Source of the DNA: Rufibacter tibetensis
GTDB taxonomy: Bacteria; Bacteroidota; Bacteroidia; Cytophagales; Hymenobacteraceae
Direction: 5' to 3'
Length of the DNA stretch: 64,000 nucleotides
NCBI RefSeq assembly: GCF_001310085.1
Contig: NZ_CP012643.1
Coordinates: 961,001-1,025,000 of the forward strand
In this document: piece after piece, positions 3,376 to 61,083 of the stretch
Numbering within the stretch: the first letter of the stretch is position 1
Layout of the letters: each line of letters starts with the position of its first letter
The notes under the pieces: generated by a model
Databases searched by the model: none
Told to the model about the DNA's origin: nothing
What the model saw: only the letters and a program-made list of their open reading frames with translations
Translations under genes and position numbers: made by a program

Positions 3376-3411
3376 GCTTTAGGCCTTGTTTCTCAAAAAC
3401 AGCTATAAAGC
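3376..3411. repeat. 36-bp dispersed palindrome, copy A
   Basis: Imperfect palindrome with outer arms GCTTTAGG / TATAAAGC around GTTTCTCAAAAAC. It directly follows the E2 terminator and belongs to the family described in the findings. Confidence 0.6.
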
Positions 3412-3495
3412 AGGAAGGCACAACCTGCCCCTGTATAATATAGTAAAAGCATTATCTTATCACCTCAATACCTATTCTGACACCTTGCCAATTTT

Positions 3496-4041
3496 ATGAA
3501 AAACGCTCTTCTTCTACTTGTGATCGCCTTCCTATTGTTTCTGGCCATTTTCTTCTATTGGAAACAAAGTCAGGCCGAAAGCCAGTTAGCCATGGCTAAT
3601 GAGAAAATCAACAGCCTGGAACAACAAGTGCTGCGGTACACCCAACCTGCTCCCATGGACACGCTTCAGCCTTCCCAGCCTCAACATCAACCCACACCAG
3701 AAACCCCAGATAGAGTGGAGAAAGTAGCGCCTCCAGAGTCTACTACCTTTGAAGAAGAAATAGGCACTTTAACCGAGGAAGACGTACAGCGATTGAAAAA
3801 GAAAGGGCTGAAAAACCCTGAGGCTGATCTCATGAACGACCTCATGCGGAAGCAGAAAAGCCTGCTTACTACCCCCGGCTCAGTAGGCGGCACTATGGCC
3901 ATCCAAGATGTCCGTATTCTGAACGATCGTCATGCCCTTGCCTACTTTGAAGACGGACATAACGGCGGCTATCTACTGCTTCGCTATGCTGTGAACAACG
4001 GCACCATCACCTGGACCAAACTAGATACGTCCAAGCTGTAG
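3496..4041 (+). CDS. Membrane-anchored hypothetical protein
   Basis: 181 residues, not recognised as a named family. Residues 4-22 (ALLLLVIAFLLFLAIFFYW) form one hydrophobic anchor or uncleaved signal. A short coiled-coil-like segment follows (AESQLAMANEKINSLEQQV), then a Pro/Gln-rich linker. The globular C-terminal part starts near residue 85, with an Asp/Glu-Leu/Arg-Lys-rich helix and a beta-rich end (MAIQDVRILNDRHALAYFEDG, GGYLLLRYAVNNGTITW). The layout suggests a periplasm-facing domain tethered to the inner membrane, but no function can be assigned. It is convergent with valS, with a shared terminator between them. Confidence 0.7.
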   Translation: MKNALLLLVIAFLLFLAIFFYWKQSQAESQLAMANEKINSLEQQVLRYTQPAPMDTLQPSQPQHQPTPETPDRVEKVAPPESTTFEEEIGTLTEEDVQRLKKKGLKNPEADLMNDLMRKQKSLLTTPGSVGGTMAIQDVRILNDRHALAYFEDGHNGGYLLLRYAVNNGTITWTKLDTSKL

Positions 4042-4095
4042 TATTTTAAGCTTGATTTCTAAAAAGAAGCCTCATACGTAATCATCTCTTAAAAA

Positions 4096-4131
4096 TGAAA
4101 GCGGCTGCCCCATTAGGAGCAGCCGCTTTCA
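4096..4131. terminator. Bidirectional terminator between convergent genes
   Basis: Perfect 13-bp arms TGAAAGCGGCTGC / GCAGCCGCTTTCA around a 10-nt loop. It lies between the hypothetical membrane protein (+) and valS (-), and can serve both strands. Confidence 0.8.
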
Positions 4132-4150
4132 TTTCTATAATTCAACTTCC

Positions 4151-7066: not shown

Positions 7067-7107
7067 GCGTTTCTTTTTGTAGTTTCAGTAAAACAGCCCA
7101 ATAACGC
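7067..7107. repeat. Dispersed palindrome, copy P (variant arm)
   Basis: The right arm AAAACAGCCCAATAACGC is well kept; the left arm GCGTTTCTTTTTG is degenerate. It shares this arm variant with the copies at 23341 and 29571. Confidence 0.45.
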
Positions 7108-8655: not shown

Positions 8656-8659
8656 TTTT

Positions 8660-8694
8660 CTTTTAAGGTGATTTCACAAAAACAGCCTTAAAAT
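8660..8694. repeat. 36-bp dispersed palindrome, copy B
   Basis: Arms CTTTTAAGG / CCTTAAAAT with centre GATTTCACAAAAAC. It begins 5 bp after the acyl-CoA reductase stop codon. Confidence 0.65.
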
Positions 8695-9187: not shown

Positions 9188-9226
9188 AAAAGGCCTTTGG
9201 TTTTCCACCAAAGGTCTTTTCTTTTT
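9188..9226. terminator. Terminator between convergent genes
   Basis: The stem AAAAGGCCTTTGG / CCAAAGGTCTTTT has one G-T mismatch and is followed by CTTTTTT. It separates the hypothetical gene from the convergent nucleoside phosphorylase. Confidence 0.8.
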
Positions 9227-9240
9227 TATGAGCTATTTTA

Positions 9241-10104
9241 CTAAATCCGGTCTAAAACCTTCAAGATCAAATCATCAATCACTTGGTCTGCATCAGGGGT
9301 AAACTCATGGGTGATGCGGTTCGCTACAATGGCGTTAAGCGAAAGCACTTCATGGCCTAACAGACGGCCAAGGCTGTAGATACCAGCCGTCTCCATCTCA
9401 AAATTGGTAAACTGCACATTCTCAAACCTAAAGTTGCTCAGCTTTTGAATCACATCTTCAATTTTAGGCTGTAAACGCAGCAACCTTCCCTGTGGTGCAT
9501 AAAAGCCAGGGCAAGTAAACGTATTGCCATGGATCATGTCAAAGCCAATCTGCTCCCGAAGGATGTCAGAGCCCTTGGCGCAGTATGGCAAAAAACCGAT
9601 GCCTAAAGCCAGCTGCACGTTCACCGCAATCTCCGTCTCGTAGCCGGTTTCCATAAGTGGGTAGAACTGCATGAGCGTATCCAATCCAAGTGCGTATTCG
9701 GTGGCCAGGTGACTACCCAACGGAACATCCTGCTGCAGGGCTCCGGAAGTTCCTATGCGGACAATCTTCAGGGAGATGCGGTCCTCCGGTTCTAACGCCT
9801 CGCGGCTCACAAAGTCAATGTTCACCAGTGCATCCAACTCGTTCATGACAATATCAATGTTGTCTGTGCCAATGCCCGTTGAAACCACTGAGATGCGTTT
9901 GCCTTTGTAATAGCCCGTGTGGGTTACAAACTCGCGCTTGGCTACCTGCACCTCTATAGAATCAAAATGGCGGCTCACGCGGTTTACGCGGTCCTGGTCA
10001 CCCACGGTGATGATGGTATCAGAAATCTGCTCGGGCAGCAGGTTCAGGTGGTAAATGCTGCCATCGGCGTTCAGGATTAATTCAGACTCAGGAATACGCG
10101 CCAT
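9241..10104 (-). CDS. Nucleoside phosphorylase (PNP/UDP family)
   Basis: 287 residues from the ATG at 10104 (MARIPESELILNADGSIYHL). An in-frame extension to 10230 would run into the trhO terminator and lacks family character. The PNP_UDP_1 fold is visible: TIITVGDQDRVNRVSRHF near the N-terminus (phosphate and nucleoside-binding glycine loop), STGIGTDNIDIVMNEL, and RIGTSGALQQDVPLG. Near the C-terminal third, FTNFEMETAGIYSLGRLLGH holds the Met-Glu pair that contacts ribose. The enzyme splits a nucleoside with phosphate into a base and ribose-1-phosphate for salvage. The specificity is probably uridine or purine nucleosides and cannot be settled from motifs. Confidence 0.88.
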   Translation of the reverse strand: MARIPESELILNADGSIYHLNLLPEQISDTIITVGDQDRVNRVSRHFDSIEVQVAKREFVTHTGYYKGKRISVVSTGIGTDNIDIVMNELDALVNIDFVSREALEPEDRISLKIVRIGTSGALQQDVPLGSHLATEYALGLDTLMQFYPLMETGYETEIAVNVQLALGIGFLPYCAKGSDILREQIGFDMIHGNTFTCPGFYAPQGRLLRLQPKIEDVIQKLSNFRFENVQFTNFEMETAGIYSLGRLLGHEVLSLNAIVANRITHEFTPDADQVIDDLILKVLDRI

Positions 10105-11216: not shown

Positions 11217-11389
11217 ACGGCTTAGTTTCAGACTAAGTGTGTAAATGGATGCTGGATATTAGATGTTAGACGCTAGACTTTCTCTTTTTAGTTCCTTCAC
11301 CCTTTCAGGGCAAATTTAAGGAAATCGGCTCTAAAACAGAAAATGACGTTTGTCAGACATACATCTAACATCTATTGTCAAAAGTCTTT

Positions 11390-12110: not shown

Positions 12111-12146
12111 GTTTAGGGTCTGTTTTCAGAAAACAACGCTAAAAAC
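12111..12146. repeat. 36-bp dispersed palindrome, copy C
   Basis: Arms GTTTAGGG / GCTAAAAAC around TGTTTTCAGAAAACA. It lies 39 bp past the stop codon of the minus-strand membrane protein gene. Confidence 0.65.
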
Positions 12147-14825: not shown

Positions 14826-14863
14826 CGTTTATGGGCTATTTATTTTAAAACTCTTCTAAAACG
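14826..14863. repeat. Dispersed palindrome, copy O (degenerate)
   Basis: Arms CGTTTATGGG / CTAAAACG around CTATTTATTTTAAAAC. It begins 1-2 bp after the pyrF stop codon on the minus strand. Confidence 0.45.
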
Positions 14864-15695: not shown

Positions 15696-15804
15696 GGGGC
15701 AAAAAAGGTCTACACAAAGCTAATGTGTTTTCTGTTTGTTTCAGGAAAAACAGAGGAAAAATAGAGAATGAAGAATGTTTAAAAAACAACACAGTGATGC
15801 TTTT

Positions 15805-19830: not shown

Positions 19831-20859
19831 TTACTTAAGTAACCGTTGGTTAATCTGCTTGATCAGCCTTGGTCCTTCGTAAATAAAGCCCGTGTATAAT
19901 TGTATTAAATCGGCCCCGGCCGAAAGTTTCTCCAAGGCATCTTCGGCTGTCATAATGCCGCCCACACCTACCAGGCGCACTTCCTGGGGAAGTTGCTTGC
20001 GAAGGTAGCGCAGCACCTGGGTAGAGGCGCTGGTCAGGGGCTTTCCGCTCAGGCCACCCGCTCCCATCTCAGAAACACTGGTTGTAGAGGTTTGTAGCCC
20101 AGCCCGGCTGATGGTGGTATTGGTAGCAATTACGCCAGATAGCTGTGTTTGACTTGCAATCTCCACTATGTCATCTAGCTGGCTTTCATTCAGGTCTGGC
20201 GCGATTTTCAGCAACAGCGGTTTTGGTTTAGCTTTGCCCTGGTTCCGGTTCTGGAGGTTACTCAGCAAATCAAGCAACGGTTCTTTTTCCTGTAACGCCC
20301 TTAGGTCTGGCGTATTGGGCGAGCTCACGTTCACCACAAAATAATCTACCACGTCATACAGCGCATCAAAGCAATACAGGTAATCCTGCAGCGCCTGCTC
20401 ATTAGGGGTCACTTTGTTTTTACCGATGTTTCCGCCCACAATCACGTTGCTTTTCCGGCTGCGCAACCGTTCCACGGCCCTGTCAACGCCTTCATTGTTG
20501 AAACCCATCCGGTTGATGATGGCGCCGTCCTGGGGTAAGCGAAACAAGCGTGGTTTAGGGTTACCGGTCTGTGGTTTAGGTGTCAAAGTGCCTATCTCAA
20601 TAAACCCGAAGCCCAACTCTGCATATTCGTCAATCATGCGGGCATCTTTGTCAAAACCAGCCGCTAAACCCACCGGGTTAGGAAAAGTAAGCCCAAAGAC
20701 TTTGCGCTCCAGCCGTGGGTCATTTACCTGAAACATGCCCCTGGAAATGGATTTGGCCAAAGGCAAATGAAACCCGGTTTTGAGGGCAGAAGTGGTTAGA
20801 TGATGTACCTTTTCAGGGTCTAACTTAAAAAGCAGCGGACGGATAAGATTTTTATACAC
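19831..20859 (-). CDS. pyrD: Dihydroorotate dehydrogenase (quinone), class 2
   Basis: 342 residues from a GTG start; the sequence [20 protein letters not shown] right behind it is the usual class 2 membrane-associating helix, which fixes the start. FMN-barrel motifs follow: [50 protein letters not shown], and [15 protein letters not shown] with the catalytic serine. Then come [30 protein letters not shown] and [30 protein letters not shown]. It oxidises dihydroorotate to orotate and passes electrons to menaquinone at the inner membrane. It lies 84 bp ahead of ftsK in the same direction. Confidence 0.95.
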
Positions 20860-21070
20860 GGCAGAATGGGTTTAGGCAAAGATAAAAAATAGCCTGTTTT
20901 TGCCTTCATTTATATGCACCAATAAAACTTTGCTTTATCTCCTCCGTCCAAGAACCAGATTCTGCTGCTTCATACCCTTTGACTTACCCTATTTAGGGAG
21001 CGTTTTAAAAAAAGGGAGCATCAAATAAAAGTGCAAACCCAAAAGTTTATAAAAAAAATTAAAATATAAC

Positions 21071-21146: not shown

Positions 21147-21704
21147 ATGATTTATGCTTTTAAACAGGAAATTGGACCGAAAAAAATGTTAGGAATCTGG
21201 AACCCGAGATTAGAAGTAGCGTGGGCAACCGAAGATGAGACCATACTAGATGCCGCAGTCCGGTTGTCTCAAAGATCTGAGCAGCCATCCTTTGCAGATG
21301 ACGTACTTTTGTTCCTGCACCAGCATTCTGGAGCAGACGTTATCATGATTTGCCACAAGACCAGCGTAAAAGGTGAGATGAAAATCCTGCGTTTGCTGTA
21401 CCAAGGGCAATCCCTTCCTATCCAAGCCACGTACACCTTAGAAGGAACTCCTTGTGCCAATGTGACCCGGCACGGCGTGTTGTATTTTCCCACCGGAGTT
21501 CAGAAGCGCTTTCCTGCGGATGTCCACCTGCGGGAATATGGCATAGACAGCTATTTTGGCTCTCCCCTGATGGGCACATCTGGAGACCTGTTAGGCGTTG
21601 TGGCGCTCCAGCACCAGAAACCGCTTCCAAATGCACAGCTTATTGAATTGTTGCTTACCATTCTTTCCCCTTCTTTGGAGACCCTGCTGGAAGATCGCCT
21701 TTGA
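21147..21704 (+). CDS. GAF-domain protein
   Basis: 185 residues with a single GAF-like domain and no output domain. It opens with a helix (DETILDAAVRLSQRSEQPSFADDVLLFLHQH). The GAF core follows (GADVIMICHKTSVKGEMKILRLLY, TYTLEGTPCANVTRHGVLYFP, FPADVHLREYGIDSYFGSPLMGTSGDLLGVVAL), then a C-terminal helix. The TPC motif and FGSPL-x-LLGVVAL pattern are typical of sensor GAF domains that bind small molecules or heme. The start is 21147, with Met14 an alternative. It is followed by two small genes (15 bp away) that may be co-transcribed. Ligand and partner are unknown. Confidence 0.75.
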   Translation: MIYAFKQEIGPKKMLGIWNPRLEVAWATEDETILDAAVRLSQRSEQPSFADDVLLFLHQHSGADVIMICHKTSVKGEMKILRLLYQGQSLPIQATYTLEGTPCANVTRHGVLYFPTGVQKRFPADVHLREYGIDSYFGSPLMGTSGDLLGVVALQHQKPLPNAQLIELLLTILSPSLETLLEDRL

Positions 21705-21719
21705 TTTGAATTTAGTTTT

Positions 21720-22016
21720 ATGAAAGGAACCAAAAAATGTCCCCATTGCGGCCACTGGTCTCCCTGGAATCAAGAAATAACTGACCGCTGTCAGAATTGC
21801 CATAGGCTTCTTGACCCTGCGGCCTATGAACGGCAGGCAGCCCAGGAGGAACGGAAAGAGGAAGAAAGCAAACGGTTTACCCTTGATTTCATAAGAATAA
21901 ACCCAGACGACCCCTATTTCCTGAAGTTCTTTAAAAGCATAGGGCTAGGATTTCAATTGGCTTTTGCGGGTATCGTCTCTTTTATTTTATGGCTTATCGC
22001 AGTTTTAGCCGGCTAA
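21720..22016 (+). CDS. Zinc-ribbon membrane protein
   Basis: 98 residues. Two cysteine pairs, CPHCG (residues 7-11) and CQNC about 18 residues later, form a short zinc ribbon at the N-terminus. A charged helix (ERQAAQEERKEEESKR) follows, and a C-terminal hydrophobic stretch (LGFQLAFAGIVSFILWLIAVLA) is a membrane segment, so the ribbon should face the cytoplasm. I do not know a named family for it. It lies 15 bp after the GAF gene, and its 3' end overlaps the next gene by 28 bp, suggesting translational coupling. Confidence 0.78.
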   Translation: MKGTKKCPHCGHWSPWNQEITDRCQNCHRLLDPAAYERQAAQEERKEEESKRFTLDFIRINPDDPYFLKFFKSIGLGFQLAFAGIVSFILWLIAVLAG

Positions 22017-22360: not shown

Positions 22361-22451
22361 ACTTATCCCGTTTACCAGCCGATTTTCTAAAAGGAGGTCC
22401 TAAACACTAGCTTTCCCAAACCAAGAATGGCTCCTGCGTATAAGTAGGGCT

Positions 22452-23340: not shown

Positions 23341-23376
23341 GTTTTCAAATAGTCTTCTGTAAAACAGCCAATAAAC
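23341..23376. repeat. 36-bp dispersed palindrome, copy Q
   Basis: Arms GTTTTCAAATAG / CCAATAAAC with centre TCTTCTGTAAAACAG. It is 9 bp past the stop codon of the oxidoreductase gene and abuts REP-doublet copy 2. Confidence 0.5.
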
Positions 23377-24414: not shown

Positions 24415-24575
24415 GGGCGTTTACTGTATAGAAAGAGAAAAGAAACAGGCGCTAATAAGGCCTGCGCAATTATGTTTTACGACCAATTTGTGGAAAACGT
24501 CCCAGATTCTGCGTAACCTTACCGGTTTCATGGAGGTAAGCATAGCTTTTGCCTCGGTTTATACGTTCTTAGCGC

Positions 24576-27053
24576 ATGCCCTTTTTTAACTCCTACTTCG
24601 GAAGCTTCTCAGACTGGATGAACACCCGCCGTAAGCGTTGGCTAACCCGGCATGGGCATACATTATCTATGAGTTACTGGAAATCATTGGACAGAAGAGG
24701 TTGGTTACGGGTATTAGGAAAGGGTGTGGCGGCTGTGGCGCTGGTCTTTTTCGTGTTCTACCTGGCGGTGTATTTTGGGTTATTTGGCTGGCTACCCACC
24801 AAACGCCAACTGAAAGCCGTGCAGAACAACATGCCCTCTGAGGTCTACACGGCCGACAGTGTGCTCATTGGCCGCTACTTTATCCAGGACCGAACCAACG
24901 TAGCCTATAAAGACATTGCCGAACCGGCCATCCATGCGTTAGTGGCCACCGAAGACGTCCGTTTCTATGAGCATGATGGCGTGGATTACCGAAGCTGGGC
25001 CCGTGTTTTCATCAAAAGCCTTCTCCTGCAGAATGAAGCTTCCGGTGGAGGAAGTACTCTAAGTCAGCAGTTAGCCAAAAACCTTTTCCCCCGCAAGAAC
25101 TTAGGGTTTCTTTCCATGCCCGTAAACAAGCTGCGCGAAGTGATTTTGGCGCGCCGTTTTGAGGCCATTTACACCAAAGAGGAGATTTTGCAGCTGTATC
25201 TCAACACCGTGCCCATGGGCGGAAACGTGTACGGCATAGAATCAGCAGCCCGGCGGTTTTTCAATACCTCCGCAGATTCTCTTAAAACTGAAGAAGCCGC
25301 CGTGCTGATTGGTTTGCTGAAAGGAACCACGTATTACCACCCCAAACTGTACCCTGAACGTTCTTTGCAGCGCCGGAACGTGGTGCTGGCTCAAATGGCG
25401 AGGTACGGCTACCTCACCCCTGAACAAAAAGATTCCCTGCAAAAACGCCCGCTTACCCTTCGGTATAATGCTTACTCGCACCACAGCGGTTTGGCGCCTT
25501 ACTTCAGAGAGCACCTGCGCGAAGAACTGACGCATTGGGCAGCCCAACAGAAAGACGCAGAAGGCGACCCGTACAACCTCTACAACGACGGCCTCAAGAT
25601 TTACACCACCCTTGACAGCAAAATGCAGCGCCATGCGGAACTGGCCCTTCGGCAGCGCATGAAAACTCTGCAAATTGATTTTGACAAGCACTGGGGAAAC
25701 AAAGCCCCATGGACCGGCCAGCCCGATGTTCTGAAAGCCGCCAAGGAGCGGTCGCTCCGCTATCGGCGTCACAAAGCGGCTGGTATGTCTGATTCTGAGA
25801 TAGACGAAATTTTTAATACCCCACGCAAGATGCAGGTGTTCAGGTGGCGCGGCGAAGTAACCCGCACAATCAGCCCCATGGATTCTCTGCGACACTACCT
25901 GCGTTACCTTAACGCTGGTTTCCTTGCCATGGAGCCCACCAGCGGCTACATCCGCGCCTGGGTAGGCGGCATCAATCACAATTACTTCCAATACGATCAT
26001 GTGCGCTCGCGCCGGCAGGTGGGTTCTACCTTCAAGCCCTTTGTATACGCCGCTGCCATGGACCAAGGCATTGCGCCCTGCTCCTACTTCCCTAATGACC
26101 GCCGCGTTTTTCCTGAGTATGAGAACTGGTCGCCTCGCAACGCTGACAACCAGTACGGCGGCGCCTATTCCATGCTGGGGGCACTTACCCATTCTGTGAA
26201 CACGGTGTCAGTGAACGTGGCCATGCAGGCAGGTATTCCTAAAATCGTTCAATTAGCGCACAGCTTGGGCATCAAAGGTGAACTTCCCTCCACCCCTTCC
26301 CTGGCCCTCGGCACCGCCGATGCCAGTTTGCTGGAGATGGTGGGCGCCTACGGGGCACTGGCCAACGGAGGCTACCAGGTGAAGCCCCGTTATCTACTGC
26401 GTATTGTGGATCGGCAAGGCCGAGTGCTCCTGGACCAGACCAACTCCAATGGACAAGGGGAACACGTGTTATCCAGTCAAACCACGGCGCTTTTACGCCC
26501 TATGCTGGAGAATGTGGTCAATGAAGGTACCGGCCGCAGGCTGCGCCAGGAATACCGTCTGAACATGGGCATTGCAGGTAAAACTGGTACTACCCAATCA
26601 CACGCCGATGGTTGGTTTATTGGCTACACCCCAGACTTAGTGGCAGGCGCCTGGGTGGGCGGAGAAGACCGTCGCATCCGTTTCCGAGATTTAGAGAAAG
26701 GCGGGGGAGCTAACACTGCTCTTCCTATTTGGGGTACTTTCTTTCAGCGCCTAAGCAAGGACAGAGCTTACCGCAGATACGCTTACAGCCAATTCTCCCC
26801 GCTTCCCAGTCATCTGCAAGGGTATTTGAACTGCCCTCCGTACCAGCCGCCGTTTGTGGAAGAACCTATCATTGAAGAGGAAAGAGGCTTAGATGGCTTC
26901 TTTGAAAGAAGCGGCCGTAAACTGAAAGACTTGTTCAAAAAGAAAAACAAGAACAAGGATAGAGACAAAGAAAGAGACCGTGAAAAAGACTGGCAAAAGG
27001 AGCTGGAGAAGGAACTGGAAAAAAGAAGGGATAGAGGAAGAGGCAGAGACTAG
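24576..27053 (+). CDS. Class A penicillin-binding protein (PBP1A-type)
   Basis: 825 residues. A short cytoplasmic part and one membrane anchor (VAAVALVFFVFYLAVYFGLF, about 51-70) precede a GT51 transglycosylase domain (ALVATEDVRFYEHDG with catalytic Glu126; GGSTLSQQLAKNLFPRK; ILQLYLNTVPMGGNVYGIESAA). The transpeptidase domain has SxxK at Ser484-Lys487 (GSTFK), SVN in SVNTVSVN, and KTGTT from Lys669. It polymerises and cross-links peptidoglycan in the periplasm. An unusual feature is the C-terminal tail of about 45 residues, almost only Lys, Arg, Asp and Glu with some Asn/Trp. The start could also be Met15 or Met32. A terminator follows 70 bp downstream. Confidence 0.94.
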   Translation: MPFFNSYFGSFSDWMNTRRKRWLTRHGHTLSMSYWKSLDRRGWLRVLGKGVAAVALVFFVFYLAVYFGLFGWLPTKRQLKAVQNNMPSEVYTADSVLIGRYFIQDRTNVAYKDIAEPAIHALVATEDVRFYEHDGVDYRSWARVFIKSLLLQNEASGGGSTLSQQLAKNLFPRKNLGFLSMPVNKLREVILARRFEAIYTKEEILQLYLNTVPMGGNVYGIESAARRFFNTSADSLKTEEAAVLIGLLKGTTYYHPKLYPERSLQRRNVVLAQMARYGYLTPEQKDSLQKRPLTLRYNAYSHHSGLAPYFREHLREELTHWAAQQKDAEGDPYNLYNDGLKIYTTLDSKMQRHAELALRQRMKTLQIDFDKHWGNKAPWTGQPDVLKAAKERSLRYRRHKAAGMSDSEIDEIFNTPRKMQVFRWRGEVTRTISPMDSLRHYLRYLNAGFLAMEPTSGYIRAWVGGINHNYFQYDHVRSRRQVGSTFKPFVYAAAMDQGIAPCSYFPNDRRVFPEYENWSPRNADNQYGGAYSMLGALTHSVNTVSVNVAMQAGIPKIVQLAHSLGIKGELPSTPSLALGTADASLLEMVGAYGALANGGYQVKPRYLLRIVDRQGRVLLDQTNSNGQGEHVLSSQTTALLRPMLENVVNEGTGRRLRQEYRLNMGIAGKTGTTQSHADGWFIGYTPDLVAGAWVGGEDRRIRFRDLEKGGGANTALPIWGTFFQRLSKDRAYRRYAYSQFSPLPSHLQGYLNCPPYQPPFVEEPIIEEERGLDGFFERSGRKLKDLFKKKNKNKDRDKERDREKDWQKELEKELEKRRDRGRGRD

Positions 27054-27169: not shown

Positions 27170-27205
27170 CTTTTAAAGTTATTTTACAGAAAACAGCCTT
27201 AAAAG
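27170..27205. repeat. 36-bp dispersed palindrome, copy D
   Basis: Arms CTTTTAAAG / CCTTAAAAG, centre TATTTTACAGAAAACAG. It ends 15 bp from the folB stop codon. Confidence 0.65.
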
Positions 27206-29543: not shown

Positions 29544-29570
29544 GGGGTACGGTAAAAGTAAGGAAAGCTA

Positions 29571-30958: not shown

Positions 30959-31015
30959 GGCCTCATATGGTTTAAGAACACATTTAGTAAAACTCGCCCA
31001 AAAAGAATCCTTTGT

Positions 31016-37919: not shown

Positions 37920-37975
37920 GCCGCCTGCTGTTTCAGGACTGTTTTTGGAAGAACAGCTCTGAAACAGCAGGCGGC
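37920..37975 (-). terminator. Nested hairpin after the histidine kinase gene
   Basis: Perfect 16-bp arms GCCGCCTGCTGTTTCA (37920-37935) and TGAAACAGCAGGCGGC (37960-37975). The 24-nt centre is a copy of the dispersed palindrome (GGACTGTTTTTGG...GAACAGCTC). It lies 22 bp past the kinase stop. Confidence 0.7.
37931..37964. repeat. 36-bp dispersed palindrome, copy G
   Basis: TTTCAGGACTG / CAGCTCTGAAA around TTTTTGGAAGAA, enclosed by a larger perfect stem. Confidence 0.6.
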
Positions 37976-40170: not shown

Positions 40171-40206
40171 CTTTTAAGGCCGTTTTCCTTAAAACGGCCT
40201 TAAAAG
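40171..40206. repeat. 36-bp dispersed palindrome, copy H (perfect)
   Basis: The best copy. Perfect 16-bp arms CTTTTAAGGCCGTTTT / AAAACGGCCTTAAAAG around CCTT. It ends 1-2 bp from the stop codon of the DUF3817 gene. Confidence 0.8.
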
Positions 40207-40635: not shown

Positions 40636-40671
40636 GTTTAGGACCTGACTTTCAGAAAACAAGCCCTAAAC
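40636..40671. repeat. 36-bp dispersed palindrome, copy I
   Basis: GTTTAGGACCTG / AAGCCCTAAAC around ACTTTCAGAAAAC. Located between divergent starts. Confidence 0.6.
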
Positions 40672-40803: not shown

Positions 40804-43800
40804 GTGCCAGATTTTTCCCACCTCCATACCCATACCCAATACTCGTTGCTTGACGGGGCCGCCAGCATTAGCGGGCTTATGAAAAAAGCCTCTGCCGATG
40901 GCATGAAAGCCGTTGCCATGACGGACCACGGCAATATGTTTGGGGCGTTCAACTTTGTGGCCGAGGCCAACAAGTACAACGTGAAACCCATTGTGGGCTG
41001 TGAGTTCTATCTGGTAAACGACCGCCATCAGAAATCCTTTAGTAAGGAGCAGAAAGACGTGCGCCACCATCAGTTATTGCTGGCTAAAGACCAGGAAGGC
41101 TACCAGAACCTGGCCAAGCTCTGCTCCTACTCCTACATTGACGGCTTGTACAGCAAGTGGCCGCGCATTGACAAGGAATTGCTGATGAAGTATTCCAAAG
41201 GCCTCATTGCCACCTCTTGCTGCATTGGTGCGGAGCTGCCGCAGGCGATTCTTTGGAAGGGCGAGGAAGAAGCGGAGAAACTGCTGCAATGGTGGCTGGA
41301 TTTGTTTGGCGAGGACTTCTACATTGAGATCCAGCGCCACGGCCTTATGAACATTGACGGCACCGGCAAAAGCCAGGAAGACGTGAACCAGGTGCTGCTC
41401 AAATGGGCCATCAAGTACAATGTGAAGGTGATCTGCACCAACGACTCTCACTACGTGGAGCAAACCGACTGGAATGCGCATGACATTCTGCTATGCGTGA
41501 ACACCGGTGAGCAGGAAAGTGTACCCGTAGGTGATTTCCAGACGCAGTACTTCCGGTTGATGTCGGGTAGCGGCGAGGTGATTTATGACACACTGTCTAA
41601 CATCCGGAACACGTACGGCCACGACGAGAACGTGCGCCGCATGCTCTACCGTATTGAGGAAGAGCAGCAGAAACCGCGCCCGCAGGACCGTTTCGGATTC
41701 CCGAACGACCAGTTCTATTTCAAGTCGCAGGCCGAGATGAACCAATTGTTCGCTGACGTGCCATTTGCCATAGACAACACGAACGAGATCGTGGACAAGA
41801 TCACGCCGCCCAAGTTGCAGCGCGATATCCTGTTGCCCAACTTCCCGCTGCCCCCGGAGCACCCCACCGCCGACTTGTTTTTGCGCCACCTCACCTTTGA
41901 AGGTGCCAAGAAACGCTATACAGATATTACCCCTGAGGTAGAAGAACGCCTGAACTATGAATTGGGCATCATTGAAACCATGGGCTTTGCGGGATATTTC
42001 CTTATTACCCAGGATTTCATCAATAAAGGCCGTAGCATGGGCGTAGCTGTGGGTCCGGGCCGTGGTTCGGCGGCAGGTTCTGCCGTGGCCTACTGCGTGG
42101 GGATCACGAACATTGACCCCATTAAGTACTCGCTCCTGTTTGAGCGCTTCCTGAATCCTGAGCGGGTGTCCATGCCCGATATTGATATTGACTTTGACGA
42201 CGTGAACCGCCAGCGCGTGATTGACTACGTGGTAGACAAGTACGGCAAAACGCAGGTGGCCCAGATCATCACCTTTGGTACCATGGCTGCTAAATCGTCT
42301 ATCAAAGACGTGGCGCGCGCCCTGGATTTACCTCTTGCTGAAGCCAATGAACTCGCCAAGATGGTACCGGAGGTGCCCGGCACCACCTTGGCCAAGGCCT
42401 TCATAGAATCACCTGAACTCGCTGCTATTAGAGACGGCAATGATTTACGGGCCAAAACCCTGAAACTAGCCGAGAAACTGGAAGGCTCAGTTAGGAACAC
42501 CGGTATTCACGCGGCGGGGGTAATCATCGCGCCAGATGATATTACCAACTACATTCCGGTTTCCACGTCCAAAGACTCTGACTTGTTGGTGACGCAGTTT
42601 GATGGGAAAGTGATTGAGAGTGCGGGCATGCTGAAAATGGACTTTTTGGGTCTGAAAACCCTGTCCATTTTGAAAGACGCCATGGCCCTCATAAAGCGGA
42701 ACCACGGCGTGGAGATTGACATTGACAATATTCCGCTGGACGATGAAAAAACCTACGCCTTGTACCAGCGCGGCGATACCATTGGGACGTTCCAGTTTGA
42801 GTCTGAGGGCATGCGGATGTACCTCAAGGACCTGAAGCCGACCAACATTGAAGACTTGATTGCCATGAACGCCTTGTACCGTCCGGGCCCGATGCAGTTC
42901 ATCCCGAACTTCATTAACCGGAAACACGGCAAGGAAGAAGTGGAATACCCTCATGAGCTGCTAGAGCCGCTTTTGAAAAACACCTACGGCATCATGGTGT
43001 ACCAGGAGCAGATTATGCAGACGGCGCAGGTACTAGCGGGCTACTCCCTGGGTGGCGCCGACTTGTTGCGCCGCGCAATGGGTAAGAAGGACATGAAGAA
43101 AATGGCTTTGGAACGCGAGAAATTCGTGGCCGGAGCCAAGGAGATTCATGGCATTCCGGCCAAGCATGCCTCTGAGGTATTTGACGTGATGGAGAAGTTT
43201 GCGCAGTACGGTTTTAACCGCTCGCACTCCGCCGCTTACTCCGTAGTAGCCTACCAGACCGGTTACCTCAAGGCCCATTACCCGGCTGAATACATGGCCG
43301 CCGTGCTCACCCACAACATGAACGACATCAAGAAGGTGACGTTCTTTATTGAGGAGGCACGTAAGCAGCAGATTCAGGTATTGGGACCAGACGTGAACGA
43401 ATCCATCCACCAGTTCAACGTGAACCAGCAAGGTCAAATACGTTTCGGGATGGGTGCGGTGAAAGGAACCGGTGAAGCCGCCGTGGAAGCTATCATTGAG
43501 GAACGTGAGAAGAGCGGCAACTACTCTGATATATTTGATTTCGCGAAGCGCGTGAACCTGCGGGCCGTGAACAAGAAAACCTTTGAAAGTTTGGCCCAAG
43601 CCGGTGCTTTTGACTCGTTTGAACGCTATCACCGTGCCCAGTACCTGGAAACCCCGGAAGGTGAAAGCATCAACCTGATTGAAAAGGCCGTGCGCTTCGG
43701 GAACCAATTCCAGGCCGAGAAAAACGCTGCCCAGCAATCCTTGTTCGGCGGTGGTGGAGCCATTGACATGCCGTTACCAAAAGTACCAGACGTGCAGCCC

Positions 43801-45741: not shown

Positions 45742-46271
45742 AGTTTATATAGCAGATCCATACATAATCTTTATAATCAGGTAGTTTACTATAAAAAAAA
45801 CATATTCTATTTTCTTATCTAAATTTGGGAAAACCATCTACCTAATCTTTTTAACCTTCATATAATCCACTAATTTTTACTTAACCATCTATGAACTGTC
45901 AATAATGACAGTTCATAGATGGTTAAGTACCTCTTTCCTCGACCTCTATCAACAGCAAAATACACTAAACTACAAACCATCAATCATCTACTATAATCTA
46001 TTAGAATAATTATACTTCTAAAAATTATTATTTTTTTCAACGCAACCTTCATCAATATTCCAAATAATATAATAATATTATAGCTTCATAACCATTAAGG
46101 AGGGATTATAGATAATTTTATAACTTTTCTTATAATACCATTTAAAAAATCAATAAATGAGGTTAGGTATAGCATAAGCATCAAATTCTTATAAATAATA
46201 AGAAAAGCCTTTTTATCTATATCTAGCCATGTAAGCTATCTCAGAAATTATTACCATAATTAATTTAAGCT
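45742..46271. other. 530-bp non-coding spacer in the AT-rich island
   Basis: Very AT-rich. The only clear structure is the perfect inverted repeat at 45879-45928. A Shine-Dalgarno-like AAGGAGGG at 46097-46104 is not followed by a plausible ORF. Confidence 0.5.
45879..45928. repeat. Perfect 23-bp inverted repeat with 4-nt loop
   Basis: Arms at 45879-45901 and 45906-45928 (left arm begins ACTTAACCATCTATGAACTG) are perfect complements around ATAA. No T run follows on either strand. Confidence 0.85.
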
Positions 46272-48636: not shown

Positions 48637-48678
48637 AATAAGAAAGCCGCTCCTATACAGGGGCGGCTTTCTTATTTT
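48637..48678. terminator. Terminator between trxA and the convergent gene
   Basis: Stem AATAAGAAAGCCGC / GCGGCTTTCTTATT with one internal mismatch near the loop; usable on both strands. Confidence 0.8.
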
Positions 48679-48709
48679 AGGGTTGTTTCCAGAAAAACGA
48701 GGTTGAAAC
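48675..48709. repeat. 36-bp dispersed palindrome, copy J
   Basis: TTTTAGGGTTG / GGTTGAAAC around TTTCCAGAAAAACG. It is 26 bp beyond the stop of the convergent gene. Confidence 0.55.
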
Positions 48710-52465: not shown

Positions 52466-52496
52466 AAAAGAGGCCGGAGCATTTCCGGCCTCTTTT
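52466..52496. terminator. Bidirectional terminator
   Basis: Stem AAAAGAGGCCGGA / TCCGGCCTCTTTT with a 5-nt loop between convergent genes. Confidence 0.85.
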
Positions 52497-52551
52497 GATA
52501 AAAACATAATCAAACCTGAAAGGAACCCCTTCGCAGAAAAAGCATTGGCTT

Positions 52552-53721: not shown

Positions 53722-53757
53722 GTTTAGAGACCGTTTTCGCTAAACAGCTTTATAAAC
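53722..53757. repeat. 36-bp dispersed palindrome, copy K
   Basis: GTTTAGAGACC / GCTTTATAAAC around GTTTTCGCTAAACA. It begins 2 bp after the DUF4385 stop codon. Confidence 0.6.
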
Positions 53758-54690: not shown

Positions 54691-54726
54691 GTTTGAGGAC
54701 CTTTCCCGTAAAAACAGCCTGTAAAC
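54691..54726. repeat. 36-bp dispersed palindrome, copy L
   Basis: GTTTGAGGACC / CCTGTAAAC around TTTCCCGTAAAAACAG. Its right arm is shared with the larger hairpin of 54714-54769. Confidence 0.6.
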
Positions 54727-57224: not shown

Positions 57225-58535
57225 ATGATCCTCAATATTCTTCTTACCATTCTGCTGGTTGCTTTGAATGGTTTTTTTGTGGCCGCTGAGTTTGCCCTGG
57301 TAAAGGTCCGGGCCTCACAGATAGAGCTTCGGGCGCAGGCTGGAAATCAGCTGGCCAAGATTGCTTATCACATGATTGGTCACTTAGACGCTTACCTTTC
57401 TGCTACCCAGCTAGGCATCACCCTGGCCTCCTTGGGTCTTGGTTGGATTGGCGAAGGCGTGGTATCTGAGATCATTATTGAAATCATGCACGCGTTTGGC
57501 GCTGCCCCAGACCCGGTATTGGCGCACAAAATTGCGCTGCCTGTTTCCTTTGCCGTGATTACCGTTTTACACATCGTTTTCGGGGAACTGGCCCCAAAAT
57601 CACTAGCTATTCAGCGCCCAGAAGCTACTGCCCTGGCTGTGGCCATTCCGCTCCGAATTGTGTATTACGTTCTGCTCCCCTTTATCTGGATTCTGAACGG
57701 GTTCTCCAATTTCATTCTAAAGAAGATTGGCATCACGCCCATGCACGGCTCAGAAGTACACACCGCCGAGGAGCTCAGGTTATTATTTGAGCAAAGCGCT
57801 GAGAGCGGCGAGATTGGTGGCAGCCAACAGGAGCTGATTGAGAATGTGTTTGAGTTCAATGAGCGCATGGTGAAGCAAATCATGGTACCCCGCACCAAAC
57901 TGGTGGCCCTGGACCTTGACTCTACGGAAGAAGAAATTTTTGAGGTGGTCTTCAACGAAGGCTACACCCGCATGCCCATCTACCGTGACACCATTGACAA
58001 CATTGTGGGCATTATGTATGTAAAAGACCTGTTGGTGGTGCTACGGGCTGGCGAGCAGGTAAGCCTGGAAAAACTAATGCGCCCCGCTTACTTTGTTCCG
58101 GAGACGAAGAAAATCAGCCGCTTGCTTAAAGATTTCCAGCGCAACCGCATGCACATTGCCGTAGTCTCAGATGAGTTTGGCGGTACCTCAGGCATTGTCA
58201 CCATTGAAGATATCATTGAAGAACTGGTAGGCGAAATACAGGACGAGTACGACGAAGAGGTACCGTTGGTAGAGAAGATGGGCGACTTCGAGTTCAAGGT
58301 GGATACCTCGGCCTCCATTCTGGATGTGAACGATGACTTACCTTACCCGCTCCCGGAAGGCGAAGATTACGAAACGGTGGGTGGGTACCTCAACATGATT
58401 TACGGCCGCATTCCTGAAATTGGAGAAACGGTGGTGCACGGGGTCTATGAATTCAAAATCCTGGAGAAAACCGATCGGAACGTGGCATCTGTGTTGCTAA
58501 CGGTGACCGAAGACAAACGCGACGATATCTTATAA
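57225..58535 (+). CDS. CNNM/CorC-type (hemolysin family) membrane protein
   Basis: 436 residues. An N-terminal CNNM (DUF21) domain with several membrane segments (LNILLTILLVALNGFFVAAEFALVKVRASQIE, ATQLGITLASLGLGWIGEGVV, HIVFGELAPKSLAIQRPE) is followed by two CBS domains with FEFNERMVKQIMVPRTKLVALDLDS. A C-terminal CorC_HlyC domain follows (HIAVVSDEFGGTSGIVTIEDIIEELVGEIQDEYDEE). Proteins of this kind are linked to magnesium or cobalt efflux; the old hemolysin name is misleading. All conserved blocks are present. It stands alone with its own promoter and terminator. Confidence 0.93.
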   Translation: MILNILLTILLVALNGFFVAAEFALVKVRASQIELRAQAGNQLAKIAYHMIGHLDAYLSATQLGITLASLGLGWIGEGVVSEIIIEIMHAFGAAPDPVLAHKIALPVSFAVITVLHIVFGELAPKSLAIQRPEATALAVAIPLRIVYYVLLPFIWILNGFSNFILKKIGITPMHGSEVHTAEELRLLFEQSAESGEIGGSQQELIENVFEFNERMVKQIMVPRTKLVALDLDSTEEEIFEVVFNEGYTRMPIYRDTIDNIVGIMYVKDLLVVLRAGEQVSLEKLMRPAYFVPETKKISRLLKDFQRNRMHIAVVSDEFGGTSGIVTIEDIIEELVGEIQDEYDEEVPLVEKMGDFEFKVDTSASILDVNDDLPYPLPEGEDYETVGGYLNMIYGRIPEIGETVVHGVYEFKILEKTDRNVASVLLTVTEDKRDDIL

Positions 58536-58558
58536 GGCGGTTTTTGCCTGATTTTGTG

Positions 58559-58600
58559 AAAAGCCCCTACATAACAGGTTTGTTTTGTAGGGGCTTTTTG
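58559..58600 (+). terminator. Terminator after the CNNM/CorC gene
   Basis: Stem AAAAGCCCCTACA / TGTAGGGGCTTTTT with a 14-nt loop. Confidence 0.8.
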
Positions 58601-58914: not shown

Positions 58915-59182
58915 ATGTGACCGCTCATACCTTAGCAAATACAACCTACACCCTTCCTGCGCGTTACTACAGCCAATGACTTTGACTAGTTCAACAGGTC
59001 TTGGAATATTCTATTTATATTCCTTAAGCCTTTCCAGAAAACCTCCGTATTAGTACCCAAAACGCATTTGCGGTTTATACCCTTAAAAATAGGAAACCAA
59101 AACCTGAGGAAGCTTTTGCTCGTTCTTTTGACTAATCAAAAAAGCAAAAAAGCTATATATTAATTCATCAGCATCTTCTTCT

Positions 59183-59896
59183 ATGGTAGCAGCCTCTTCT
59201 CATCCTCAGACCTCCCTTGCCGTTGTAAGTGGCGGAGCGTCTGGTATAGGGAAGGCTATTGCGGAGCAATTAGCAGCGGCAGGCAAAAAGGTCATCATAG
59301 CCGATGTCACTACCCCGCAAGAAGAATCAGAAGCTGAGTATTTTCCCTGTAATGTAACCAACCCCGAGGATATTGCTGCGCTTTTCGCCCATATTTCCCA
59401 AAACTACGGAAAACCAGATATTCTGGTATGCTGCGCCGGTCAGGGCATTCAGGAAAAACTGACCGAAGGTGATCCCGCCAAATGGCAGCAGGTGCTTGAT
59501 TTGAACATTATGGGCACATTGCGGCTCATCAGGGCATTTACGCCTGGCATGCTGGAGCAAGGCTCCGGTGACGTGGTCATCATCAGCTCAGTAGCCGCCG
59601 GACAAGCCTTTGCTTACGGCGGAGTGTATGCGGCGAGCAAAAGTGCCTTGAACGTGATTGCCGAAACGCTCCGGCTGGAGACCTTGCCTACCATACGGGT
59701 CATTACCATTGCTCCGGGCGTTACAGACACCAACTTCTTTGAGAACACAATTTCAGGATATAACACGGTAGAATCCATTGGGTACGGAGCTTTGAGCGCC
59801 GCCGATGTGGCCGAGACCGTGCTGTTTGCATTGCAGCAACCACGGCACGTCTCGCTGAACCACCTTACGGTACGCCCCACTCCGCAACCCTTTTAA
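59183..59896 (+). CDS. Short-chain dehydrogenase/reductase
   Basis: 237 residues of the classical SDR group. The cofactor motif SGGASGIGKAIAEQLA is at the N-terminus, CCAGQGIQEKL follows, VVIISSVAAG carries the catalytic Ser, and GVYAASKSALNVIAE carries the Tyr and Lys. It oxidises or reduces a hydroxy/keto group with NAD(P). It is the first gene of a four-gene run (gaps 26, 45 and 6 bp) with two epimerases and a zinc-type dehydrogenase, so a sugar or polyol substrate is likely but not shown. Confidence 0.9.
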   Translation: MVAASSHPQTSLAVVSGGASGIGKAIAEQLAAAGKKVIIADVTTPQEESEAEYFPCNVTNPEDIAALFAHISQNYGKPDILVCCAGQGIQEKLTEGDPAKWQQVLDLNIMGTLRLIRAFTPGMLEQGSGDVVIISSVAAGQAFAYGGVYAASKSALNVIAETLRLETLPTIRVITIAPGVTDTNFFENTISGYNTVESIGYGALSAADVAETVLFALQQPRHVSLNHLTVRPTPQPF

Positions 59897-59922
59897 TCCC
59901 CTTAATACACCCACTGACAACT

Positions 59923-61041
59923 ATGAAAAAGAAAGTCTTGATAACCGGCGGTGCAGGCTTCATTGGGTCACACCTGGCAGATGAACTAATCAACTTCGGA
60001 TATGAGGTACGCGCGCTAGATAACCTTTCAGAACAAGTACACGGCAAAGACTGTGAACGCCCTGAGTACCTTCACCCCGAGGTGGAATTGCAGGTAGGCG
60101 ACGTGCGCGACAAAGCGGCCGTACTAAAAGCCTTGGAGGGCGTTGACGCCGTGTTCCATTTCGCCGCTATGGTGGGTGTGGGCCAAAGCATGTATGAAAT
60201 CAAGGAATATACCGATGTGAACAACATCGGCACCGCCGTTCTTTTGGAATGCCTCATTGAGAAACCGGTAAGCAAACTGGTAGTGGCATCCAGCATGAGC
60301 ATCTACGGCGAAGGTTTGTATACTTCCGCCACCGGTGAAAAAGTGATTGCCGCTGAGCGTGGCCTGGAGCAACTCAAAGCTGGCGACTGGGAACTGAAAA
60401 GCGAAAAAGGTGACACCCTGACTCCGGTAGCCACGCCCGAGTCTAAGATTCCTTGCCTGTCCTCGGTGTACGCCCTTTCTAAATATGACCAGGAGCGTCT
60501 TTGCCTCATGGTGGGCCGGGCTTACAACATCCCAACCGTAGCCATGCGCTTCTTCAACGTGTACGGCACGCGTCAGGCGCTTTCTAACCCGTACACGGGT
60601 GTGCTAGCCATCTTCGCCTCACGTTTCCTGAACAACAACGCGCCTATGATCTTCGAAGACGGAAACCAGCAGCGCGATTTCGTGCACGTGCGCGATGTGG
60701 CCTTGGCGTGCCGTCTGGCCATGGAGAAAGAAGAAGCGGCCGGAATGGTGTTCAACGTAGGCAGCGGAAACAACTACACTATCAGAGAAATTGGTGAGCG
60801 TTTGGCCGAAGTGATGGGAAAACAGGAATTAACTCCCGAGATTACCGGCAAGTACCGCGTAGGCGACATCCGCCACTGCTACGCCGATATCAGCCTGGCT
60901 AAAGAGGTATTGGGCTTTTACCCACAGGTAGAATTCAACAGCGGTTTAACTGAGCTGGCCGATTGGCTGGAGGGACAGATTGCGTATGACCGCGTCAATG
61001 AGGCAAGCGCCGAGTTAGCAGCCCGGGGCTTAACGGTGTAA
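59923..61041 (+). CDS. NDP-sugar epimerase/dehydratase (extended SDR)
   Basis: 372 residues. NAD-binding GGAGFIGSHL begins at residue 9 and the catalytic SSVYALSKYDQERL carries Tyr183 and Lys187. Substrate-region motifs are VFHFAAMVGVGQSMY, VVASSMSIYGEG, RFFNVYGTRQALSNPYTGVLAIF, FEDGNQQRDFVHV, VFNVGSGNNYTIREIG and a C-terminal DISLAKEVLGFYP. This is the UDP-glucose-epimerase-like family. The exact reaction is not determined by these motifs. It overlaps no gene, but palindrome copy M lies in the 45-bp space before the next ORF. Confidence 0.9.
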   Translation: MKKKVLITGGAGFIGSHLADELINFGYEVRALDNLSEQVHGKDCERPEYLHPEVELQVGDVRDKAAVLKALEGVDAVFHFAAMVGVGQSMYEIKEYTDVNNIGTAVLLECLIEKPVSKLVVASSMSIYGEGLYTSATGEKVIAAERGLEQLKAGDWELKSEKGDTLTPVATPESKIPCLSSVYALSKYDQERLCLMVGRAYNIPTVAMRFFNVYGTRQALSNPYTGVLAIFASRFLNNNAPMIFEDGNQQRDFVHVRDVALACRLAMEKEEAAGMVFNVGSGNNYTIREIGERLAEVMGKQELTPEITGKYRVGDIRHCYADISLAKEVLGFYPQVEFNSGLTELADWLEGQIAYDRVNEASAELAARGLTV

Positions 61042-61047
61042 CCCCGC

Positions 61048-61083
61048 GTTTCTGACCTGTTTTCCCAAAAAGAAGCTTAAAAC
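61048..61083. repeat. 36-bp dispersed palindrome, copy M
   Basis: GTTTCTGACCTG / GCTTAAAAC around TTTTCCCAAAAAGAA. It lies 6 bp after one stop codon and 3 bp before the next ATG. Confidence 0.55.

Follow-up and report, generated by a model that had tools for sequence, protein, structure and literature searches.

The 64,000-nucleotide stretch of the Rufibacter tibetensis genome (G000) that was analysed here, referred to as the window, encodes among others dnaE, folB, a cyanophycinase, an epimerase and the DUF3817 and DUF4385 proteins, as well as a 202-aa protein that belongs to no Pfam family and resembles a lipoprotein. Recurring along the window is a gapless 36-bp dyad, TTT-N9-TTT-N4-AAA-N9-AAA, the commonest half-site of which reads about GTTTTnGGCCTGTTTTC and the flanks of which carry little information (Table 1). 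Using a symmetric matrix trained on the window itself and a threshold of 12 bits, 38 sites were detected, whereas ten first-order Markov shuffles gave 0.8 on average, and five re-oriented versions of the pattern gave no match in the window. A first-pass annotation had noticed about 18 copies, which turned out to be an undercount. All of its 18 coordinates hold a copy; under the symmetric matrix, the frame was displaced by 1 bp at 8660, 14826, 29571, 34432, 37931 and 48675 and by 3 bp at 7067. The perfect arms it had assigned to the copy at 40171..40206 were borne out.

Table 1. Sites of the 36-bp dyad in the window; scores are from the symmetric matrix unless stated otherwise.
Position	Feature	Score (bits)	Relatives
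3376..3411	site	29.5	
4043..4078	site, 1 bp past stop of 3520-4041	21.6	
7070..7105	weak site	16.0	
8659..8694	site, 3 bp past stop of 7636-8655	29.6	
9224..9259	site straddling stop end of 9241-10104	24.5	
11302..11337	site	28.4	
12111..12146	site	32.2	
14827..14862	site, 2 bp past stop of 14865-15695	26.7	
15727..15762	site	22.8	
20634..20669	weak site within predicted CDS	15.0	
20991..21026	site	20.1	
21703..21738	site at stop of 21378-21704	21.6	
22370..22405	site	28.7	gap occupied in 3/3
23341..23376	site, 9 bp past stop of 23386-24414	26.7	
24474..24509	site in divergent gap	19.0	gap occupied in 3/3
26887..26922	weak site within predicted CDS	14.1	
27170..27205	site in convergent gap, folB end	32.2	8/8
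29570..29605	site in 84-bp divergent gap (predicted starts)	24.5	8/8
30297..30332	weak site, gap mostly empty elsewhere	14.2	1/8
30970..31005	site	24.8	gap occupied in 8/8
31193..31228	second site, same gap as 30970..31005	28.0	
34431..34466	site overlapping terminator-like hairpin 34396-34435	25.0	after same gene in 10/10
35032..35067	site	26.2	
36217..36252	site after cyanophycinase gene	32.9	9/9 with gene end found
37930..37965	site within long inverted repeat	32.1	3/4
40171..40206	perfect-arm site after DUF3817 gene	35.4	gap 4/4, after same gene 10/10
40636..40671	site in divergent gap upstream of dnaE	29.0	10/10
42443..42478	near-chance match inside dnaE, probably no site	13.6 (genome matrix)	same dnaE position below 12 bits in 7/10
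46115..46150	AT-rich weak site	16.4	
48674..48709	site abutting terminator-like hairpin 48636-48677, convergent gap	27.3	10/10
52481..52516	site, left half overlaps terminator-like 3' arm (hairpin 52466-52496)	20.3	9/9
53722..53757	site 1 bp past stop of DUF4385 gene	27.5	after same gene in 10/10
54691..54726	site overlapping hairpin 54714-54769	25.9	9/9 with gene end found
57565..57600	site within predicted CDS	20.8	
58539..58574	site 3 bp past stop of 57225-58535	18.1	9/9 with gene end found
59380..59415	site within predicted CDS	17.7	
61048..61083	site 6 bp past epimerase gene stop, 45-bp gap	33.7	4/4

The exact pattern TTTN9TTTN4AAAN9AAA occurs 531 times in the genome, and 19 times when read backwards as a control. 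Sites of at least 14 bits numbered 574 in 1.25 Mb (4.6 per 10 kb of chromosome) as opposed to 10 in one Markov sequence, and under a stricter control, a matrix with swapped halves, 54 matches were obtained in 1.24 Mb compared to 567 for the motif. A matrix scan of the genome had been suggested by the first-pass annotation; in the 1.25 Mb covered it gave a strong excess over the Markov sequence, and the earlier observation is thereby confirmed. Across the genus, a chromosome carries roughly 1,800-2,400 copies.

The placement of the sites in the genome, and the predicted stops in the window, were determined with a simple gene caller made for this analysis. Although 81% of the sequence is coding, 389 of the 574 sites were intergenic, 37 straddled a gene end and 148 fell within coding sequences, where they occurred in all three reading frames; about half of the intergenic gaps hold a site. 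Relative to the numbers expected if sites were scattered at random over these gaps (length up to 600 bp), they were enriched 0-4 bp past a stop codon (41 versus 13.9 expected) and depleted within 40 bp of a start (32 versus 72 expected). A position preference just behind stop codons had been proposed earlier, with at least eight copies 2-15 bp past a stop; nine sites of at least 12 bits lie in that range in the window, and three further ones at 1 bp (predicted stops). The preference is real but modest, and secondary to the dominant rule that sites are intergenic and away from starts. They also keep apart, as pairs less than 500 bp from each other made up 12-16%, compared to 34-37% under random intergenic placement. 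In genome G048, 26 of 29 convergent but only 12 of 29 divergent gaps of at least 40 bp held a site, and in G017 25 of 34 convergent and 15 of 34 divergent gaps did so; as divergent gaps hold sites too, the element is not tied strictly to the ends of transcription.

The element was present in all 16 genomes of the genus that were examined. Among 184 other genomes of the family counts were near background; in genus g4, two genomes exceeded the control about twofold (38 versus 18 and 39 versus 17), whereas the other g4 genomes were below it. A composite pattern matched none of 394 other genomes of the phylum. An order-level scan covered 238 genomes from outside the genus, in the majority of which the count followed the control, the largest excesses being found in G302 (102 versus 25), G256 (633 versus 325) and G325 (43 versus 4). 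The G302 matches, among those listed, resemble a different repeat. No similar dyad of such length was detected in 100 kb from each of four sister genera, where positive controls worked, and the sister-genus genome G009 displayed only short AT-rich dyads of the AAATTT type in up to 14 copies. Within the genus, the 235-kb contig C2, which is probably a plasmid and is the one contig on which the depletion was seen, carried 4 sites (0.17 per 10 kb), whereas the density over 180 kb of chromosome was 4.83 per 10 kb. The last 535 bases of another contig, C3, match many unrelated records; these matches were taken as ribosomal RNA, and C3 is therefore probably a chromosomal fragment.

In the 40-kb neighbourhood that was compared among 10 relatives, 74 of 82 gaps orthologous to an occupied window gap held a site, as opposed to 0 of 33 gaps orthologous to an empty one. 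Flank identity between relatives was about 0.24-0.51 as opposed to 0.76-0.99 at the TTT/AAA positions, a comparison for which the sites had been picked by a matrix that itself favours TTT/AAA identity. Site positions persist at orthologous gaps, with flanks that are largely randomised. Distinct arm dialects occurred in three lineages, G045, G048 and G012/G017, and not in every species.

The two arms vary almost independently. Pairing across positions 5-13 was near the expectation for independent columns in G000, G048 and G017, with a slight excess at positions 6-7 in G000 and position 6 in G048. The element is a rigid dyad that requires both of its halves in G048 and G017, the two species that allow an isolated-half test: 203 half-sites lay in full sites and 2 were isolated in G048 (null 0), while the corresponding numbers were 187 and 2 in G017 (null 2). 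The half-site of G000 is too weak to be examined in this way (711 isolated halves versus a null of 686). The full site holds 23 bits of information in G000 and 46 bits in both G048 and G017, the latter being far more than the approximately 11 bits that suffice to locate the sites. The centre (positions 18-19) is frequently the non-palindromic TG/CA, which occurred in 92 of 112 and 66 of 98 sites, and in 143 of 567 sites in G000.

Our proposed reading, to which we give about an even chance, is that the element is a duplex docking site for a putative protein of the genus. The protein would bind the duplex as a symmetric dimer or a dimer of dimers, each half-site being read through a minor groove (TTT), a major groove (GGCC/GGGC) and a second minor groove (TTT), while the TG step would lend flexibility at the dyad. 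The spaced sites would form a chromosome-wide array, away from starts and mainly where transcription ends or converges, and this array may organise or insulate the chromosome by nucleoid domains, by supercoil barriers or as a mark of chromosome versus plasmid. Dialects would arise through drift in the specificity of the protein, which the sites would follow under selection or a copying drive. The rigid frame, the information content, the nearly independent arms, the lack of halves on their own in two species, the TG/CA centre, the occupancy of orthologous gaps, the dialects, the spacing, the preference for convergent gaps and the scarcity in contig C2 argue for such a docking site, and the protein-binding palindrome that the first-pass annotation had listed among its options is supported at the sequence level by the fixed length, the need for both halves in two species and the near-independence of the arms. 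A DNA-binding-domain seed search of 1,204 predicted proteins or open reading frames, drawn from some 1.42 Mb of a genome of 5.41 Mb, returned 27 matches, all of ordinary families by eye, and gave no candidate binder; neither did inspection by eye of 122 basic, soluble proteins or a codon-adaptation ranking, in which the top genes were unlike highly expressed genes. The neighbours of the 84-bp divergent gap with its conserved site, likewise considered in the search for a binder, are housekeeping genes. The absence of a candidate from these searches counts against the docking site, as do the sites in divergent gaps. So does the information beyond 11 bits in the 46-bit sites, since simple binding-site selection does not predict such an excess, and so does the asymmetric centre, which a plain symmetric dimer does not require. 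A bolder version, in which about 2,000 dyads constitute a new bacterial chromosome mark read by one fast-evolving dimer, with a mark in every second intergenic gap and the dialect being rewritten in place in some species, is put forward tentatively and with somewhat less than even confidence. If true, bacteria would possess an equivalent of a genome-wide architectural or insulator code, or else a self-DNA tag that works independently of pili.

A self-DNA tag is also the main rival to the docking site. By analogy with the neisserial DUS and the USS of Pasteurellaceae, the dyad would be an uptake or recombination signal kept by selection or molecular drive, DNA in the current dialect being preferentially taken up or recombined, which we consider unlikely. 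DUS are described (PMC3630211, PMC2397512) as high-copy and lineage-limited, with dialects and permissive, often intergenic core-genome positions that are conserved in place, and as rare in acquired DNA; the genus restriction, dialects, spacing, permissive intergenic positions, depletion in the plasmid-like contig and excess information of the dyad resemble this pattern. The competence protein ComEC (PF03772) was found in each of the 31 family genomes searched, which include 6 genomes of the genus, but the type IV pilus/type II secretion ATPase (PF00437) was above cut-off in none of 8 genus genomes, 4 of which had weak sub-cut-off matches, and in 1 of 41 family genomes. Known DUS and USS systems use type IV pili, and the lack of a pilus ATPase above cut-off weakens the tag. 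These signals are, moreover, non-palindromic words that also occur singly, unlike the halves of the dyad in G048 and G017. A transcription boundary, at which the protein-bound site would block the polymerase from either side or assist a terminator where an operon ends, seems decidedly unlikely. The element as such is no ordinary intrinsic terminator, as its consensus begins with TTT and ends with AAA instead of a GC stem followed by a T run; the earlier remark that there is no T run holds within the element, although terminators can lie directly beside it. In G000, terminator stems ended 0-7 bp before a site in 39 cases, against an expectation of about 6 derived from the 8-59 bp bins, and 9-16 bp inside a site in 17 cases, with none at 17-40 bp inside. 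While this peak, the high occupancy of convergent gaps and the excess 0-4 bp past stops favour a boundary element, G017 lacks the 0-7 bp peak (1 case) and displays only the inner position (7 cases), and of the 823 terminators detected in G000, just 114 have a site no more than 60 bp away. In addition, divergent gaps without a gene end hold sites, among them the 84-bp gap between housekeeping genes that is occupied in all eight relatives, and a roadblock directly behind the U-tract should, by reasoning, halt the polymerase before the hairpin folds.

REP- or REPIN-like repeats, spread and homogenised by a RAYT (TnpA-REP), would likewise be numerous, extragenic and palindromic. RAYT is the usual mover of REP, and RAYT-like genes occur in 15 of the 16 genus genomes, several beside dnaE. 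We nevertheless regard this explanation as very improbable: RAYTs are about as common in motif-free genera (59/74), and the one-contig genome G012 has 752 exact copies and no RAYT by Pfam or protein search, on which ground RAYT/REP was rejected. Furthermore, recognition of REP needs a folded single-strand hairpin (PMC8266576), yet the arms of the dyad hardly covary. The positions are common to species in the single neighbourhood tested, in which the occupancy of gaps among the 10 relatives speaks against insertion polymorphism, and the mobile repeat considered in the first-pass annotation is thus unsupported as a present cause. Because the flanks carry little information, the dyad lacks a conserved tag, unlike REP. 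An RNA hairpin at mRNA 3' ends, serving stability, processing or factor binding, is barely credible. It would be in line with the stop-proximal excess, with a small subset of perfect hairpins (8-9 of 9 pairs in 26 of 574 sites, where about 2 would be expected) and with flank pairing above expectation in G017 (e.g., 0.46 versus 0.31 at distance 3). However, sites also occur in divergent gaps and inside coding sequences in all frames, Rfam gave no match at gathering score in the window, and the near-independence of the arms speaks against a hairpin for the bulk of sites, for which the mRNA 3'-end structure suggested earlier finds no support beyond the perfect subset. As the arms hardly covary, isolated halves are absent in two species and one species with strong sites has no RAYT, neither an RNA hairpin, nor a terminator, nor a REP driven by RAYT accounts for the dyad in the main. 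The inverted half-sites around a non-palindromic central dinucleotide are a feature of serine recombinase att sites as well, and the asymmetric centre had suggested such an enzyme as the genus-wide binder. Among the matches listed, PF00239 occurred in 45 of the 48 family genomes, comprising all 10 from the genus and 35 of 38 others, with one match in G006, in a 227-aa frame, and a form of about 530 aa in G012, G017, G022 and the sister genus g2; in the absence of a genus-specific distribution among these matches, this candidate was rejected.

As far as titles and the openings of abstracts show, none of the papers found in the literature describes the element, and sites so long, numerous, rigid and fixed yet rewritten fall outside the known bacterial repeat classes tested here. 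If one protein reads the sites, they would offer a clean system for the joint change of a DNA-binding specificity and about 2,000 sites, and might uncover a layer of chromosome organisation or self-recognition in Bacteroidota. The element may also be useful for recognising the genus and for telling chromosomal from plasmid DNA. REP, BIME and REPIN are likewise small (20-40 bp) high-copy palindromes (PMC3733652), whereas the arms of the dyad are hardly paired, its positions are conserved and no RAYT is needed in G012. Intrinsic terminators can share position and T-tracts with the dyad, which, however, does not itself carry a U-tract following a stem; nor need its arms pair. HIP1 of cyanobacteria is also a highly iterated, lineage-limited palindrome, but is an 8-bp word largely in coding DNA, as opposed to 36 bp and mostly intergenic sites here. 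With DUS and USS, the dyad shares lineage limitation, high copy number, dialects (in three lineages), conservation in place and rarity in a plasmid-like contig, and the dyad sites also keep apart; it differs in being a 36-bp dyad rather than a short one-sided word. MatP, Noc, SlmA and ParB are dimeric proteins with palindromic chromosomal sites and thereby come close to the proposed docking site. We know of no nucleoid protein with sites so long in such numbers: there are tens of shorter sites for these four proteins, compared to about 2,000 sites of 36 bp here.

The element occupies a 36-bp frame of the form N-TTT-N9-TTT-N4-AAA-N9-AAA-N, and it was present at all 18 places listed in the first-pass annotation. 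The window itself served to train a symmetric matrix by iteration; within the 64 kb, 38 sites scored 12 bits or more, compared to 0.8 per Markov shuffle. In the 5.41-Mb genome of R. tibetensis (G000), 531 exact matches to the core were found, and 19 to the backwards pattern. The genome scan proposed with that annotation also revealed a strong excess, as 1.25 Mb of G000 contained 574 sites of at least 14 bits (about 4.6 per 10 kb) compared to 10 in one Markov sequence. Over 1.24 Mb, the matrix identified 567 sites, its reversed version 9, and a version with swapped halves 54. Extrapolation from matrix scans of samples, rather than whole-genome matrix counts, yielded roughly 2,400 sites on the G000 chromosome (from the 1.25-Mb sample) and about 2,100 and 1,800 in the relatives G048 and G017, respectively.

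The excess, which the annotation had suggested to look for in related genomes as well, extended to all 16 analyzed genomes of the genus, with 531-1,710 exact cores per genome and 6-21 control matches. The 184 sampled genomes from the remainder of the family had 0-39 exact cores compared to 0-38 controls, and in 238 order-level genomes outside the genus the counts mostly followed the control, with exceptions including G302, G256 and G325. G302 (102 matches, 25 in the control) apparently harbors a different, TTTTGCCCAAAAC-like repeat family. A composite pattern covering the dialects and allowing up to two mismatches occurred 45 times in G000, the sole genus member of the phylum sample, and in none of the 394 other genomes. 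Similarly, a de novo search in 100 kb from each of four sister genera identified no dyad of the 36-bp kind and only short AT-rich dyads in one of the genomes; the best dyad in 100 kb of three genus genomes reached 11-50 copies.

Several species, albeit not every one, have a dialect of their own at the variable positions. G012 and G017 use GTTTTTGGCCTGTTTTC, G048 uses GTTTTcGGgCTCATTTCc with C at position 12 in 90% of the sites, and G045 uses GTTTAGGGgCTGTTTTTc with A at position 5 and G at position 6 (66% each), while a common form near GTTTTnGGCCTGTTTTC occurs with varying sharpness in G037, G022, G051, G057, G054 and G006. The half-site information amounted to 26-27 bits in G012, G017, G048 and G045, as determined from 16-24 sites each, to 12 bits in G000 and to 15-23 bits in the rest. 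The dialects of G048 and G017 were confirmed on 112 and 98 sites; the full site holds 46 bits in both, whereas a fourth of this, 11 bits, would suffice to specify that many positions. The G000 motif is degenerate outside TTT/AAA and, in addition, 147 of 567 sites are located within predicted coding sequences, compared to 7 of 112 in G048 and 4 of 98 in G017, as if specificity had relaxed in G000.

Gene coordinates were obtained by our own gene calling, with a coding fraction of 0.74-0.85 per segment. Among the 574 G000 sites, 389 were intergenic, 25 spanned a stop and 12 a start codon, in scanned sequence that was 81% coding; 341 of 755 gaps of at least 36 bp were occupied. The proposed preference for stop codons held in a mild form, accompanied by avoidance of starts; 148 of the sites lay inside predicted coding sequences. 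In G048 and G017, which have stronger sites, 102/112 and 93/98 were intergenic. Occupied gaps of at least 40 bp in G048, G017 and G000 numbered 26/29, 25/34 and 77/128 for convergent and 12/29, 15/34 and 56/134 for divergent genes. Neighboring sites outside coding sequences keep apart, as 12-16% of the spacings were below 500 bp compared to 34-37% upon random intergenic placement. The coefficient of variation of the spacing was below the null in G000 (1.0 vs. 1.30) and G017 (0.77 vs. 1.24) and above it in G048 (1.56 vs. 1.29), which contains a 31.8-kb stretch without sites. The 235-kb contig C2 of G000, presumably a plasmid, had 4 sites compared to 87 in 180 kb of chromosome. The small contig C3 carries three sites, corresponding to chromosome-like density.

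Conservation in place was determined for one neighborhood, around dnaE, in 10 relatives with 95-97% identical DnaE, counting only gaps whose neighbors are conserved in at least three relatives. Among the matches to DnaE, the closest from a named species was that of Adhaeribacter aerolatus (83%). Where the window has a site, the orthologous gap was occupied in 74 of 82 cases, and where it has none, the gap was also empty in 33 of 33. The window site in the only poorly shared gap (1/8 relatives) is weak. The flanks of orthologous sites were largely randomized (pairwise identity 0.24-0.51, with two convergent sites entered from both sides), compared to 0.76-0.99 at the TTT/AAA positions, a value inflated by the choice of sites by matrix. 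The stretch between dnaE and a thioredoxin-like gene is likely an insertion hot spot; several relatives encode RAYT-like genes of 181-187 amino acids there, G048 two of them.

Intrinsic terminators, called by a strict detector, ended 0-7 bp ahead of a G000 site in 39 cases, with about 6 expected from the 8-59 bp bins, and 9-16 bp within the site in 17 cases; none was called ending 17-40 bp inside it. The smaller samples gave 8 and 7 such cases, respectively, in G048, and 1 and 7 in G017. The two preferred end positions indicate that a terminator can use one of the TTT blocks in the site as its T-tract.

Features with coordinates in the window and in other contigs
Sequence	Coordinates	Feature	Observation
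Window	40171-40206	Site of the perfect-hairpin subset	
Window	44440-48288	dnaE to thioredoxin-like gene	Carries ORFs other than the relatives' RAYT-like genes
L241 (viral-collection contig)	1226-1310	One near-perfect site directly behind a terminator-like inverted repeat	T-tract of the repeat extends into the site
C3 (7.5-kb contig of G000)	6966-7500	Contig end	Matches many unrelated records; probably ribosomal RNA

At positions 5-13, the arms hardly covaried; in the three genomes analyzed (G000, G048 and G017) they paired about as often as independent columns would, with slight excesses at positions 6-7 in G000 (0.33 vs. 0.27 and 0.39 vs. 0.32) and at position 6 in G048 (0.52 vs. 0.37). Sites with 8-9 of 9 pairs numbered 26 of 574 in G000 (about 2 expected), 33 of 112 in G048 (26 expected) and 26 of 98 in G017 (21 expected). 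The perfect hairpins include relatives' sites behind the same genes as in the window, and some run past the 36 bp into locus-specific inverted flanks; those with extended arms possibly arose from template switching or as terminators. Isolated half-sites were absent in G048 and G017, indicating that both halves are needed there at fixed spacing; G000 had 711 compared to 686 under the null, its half-site being too weak to discriminate. The center at positions 18-19 in G048 and G017 is a non-palindromic TG/CA within an otherwise symmetric site. Central TG or CA occurred in 92/112 (G048), 66/98 (G017) and 143/567 (G000) sites, compared to 44%, 37% and 19% expected from independent bases, and by eye its orientation had no clear link to the strand of the flanking gene. 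From these sequence features, we read arms, halves and center as marks of a duplex that would be bound by a putative symmetric protein, the dyad providing a flexible step.

Other functions may be considered. A role at transcription boundaries agrees with the occupancy of convergent gaps, however, it does not fit the sites in divergent ones. REP-like repeats would depend on their usual mover, RAYT. One is encoded by 15 of the 16 genomes of the genus, yet 59 of 74 genomes of other genera encode one as well, and none was found in G012, whose sites are strong. Recognition of the duplex by a symmetric protein is to be weighed also against tagging of self-DNA as by the neisserial DUS and Pasteurellaceae USS uptake sequences. 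DUS-like tagging explains well the dialects, the spacing, the permissive positions and the depletion on the presumed plasmid, but no type IV pilus ATPase scored above the cut-off in eight genus genomes, and the sites are dyads, with no halves occurring singly. ComEC was identified in each of the 31 family genomes searched.
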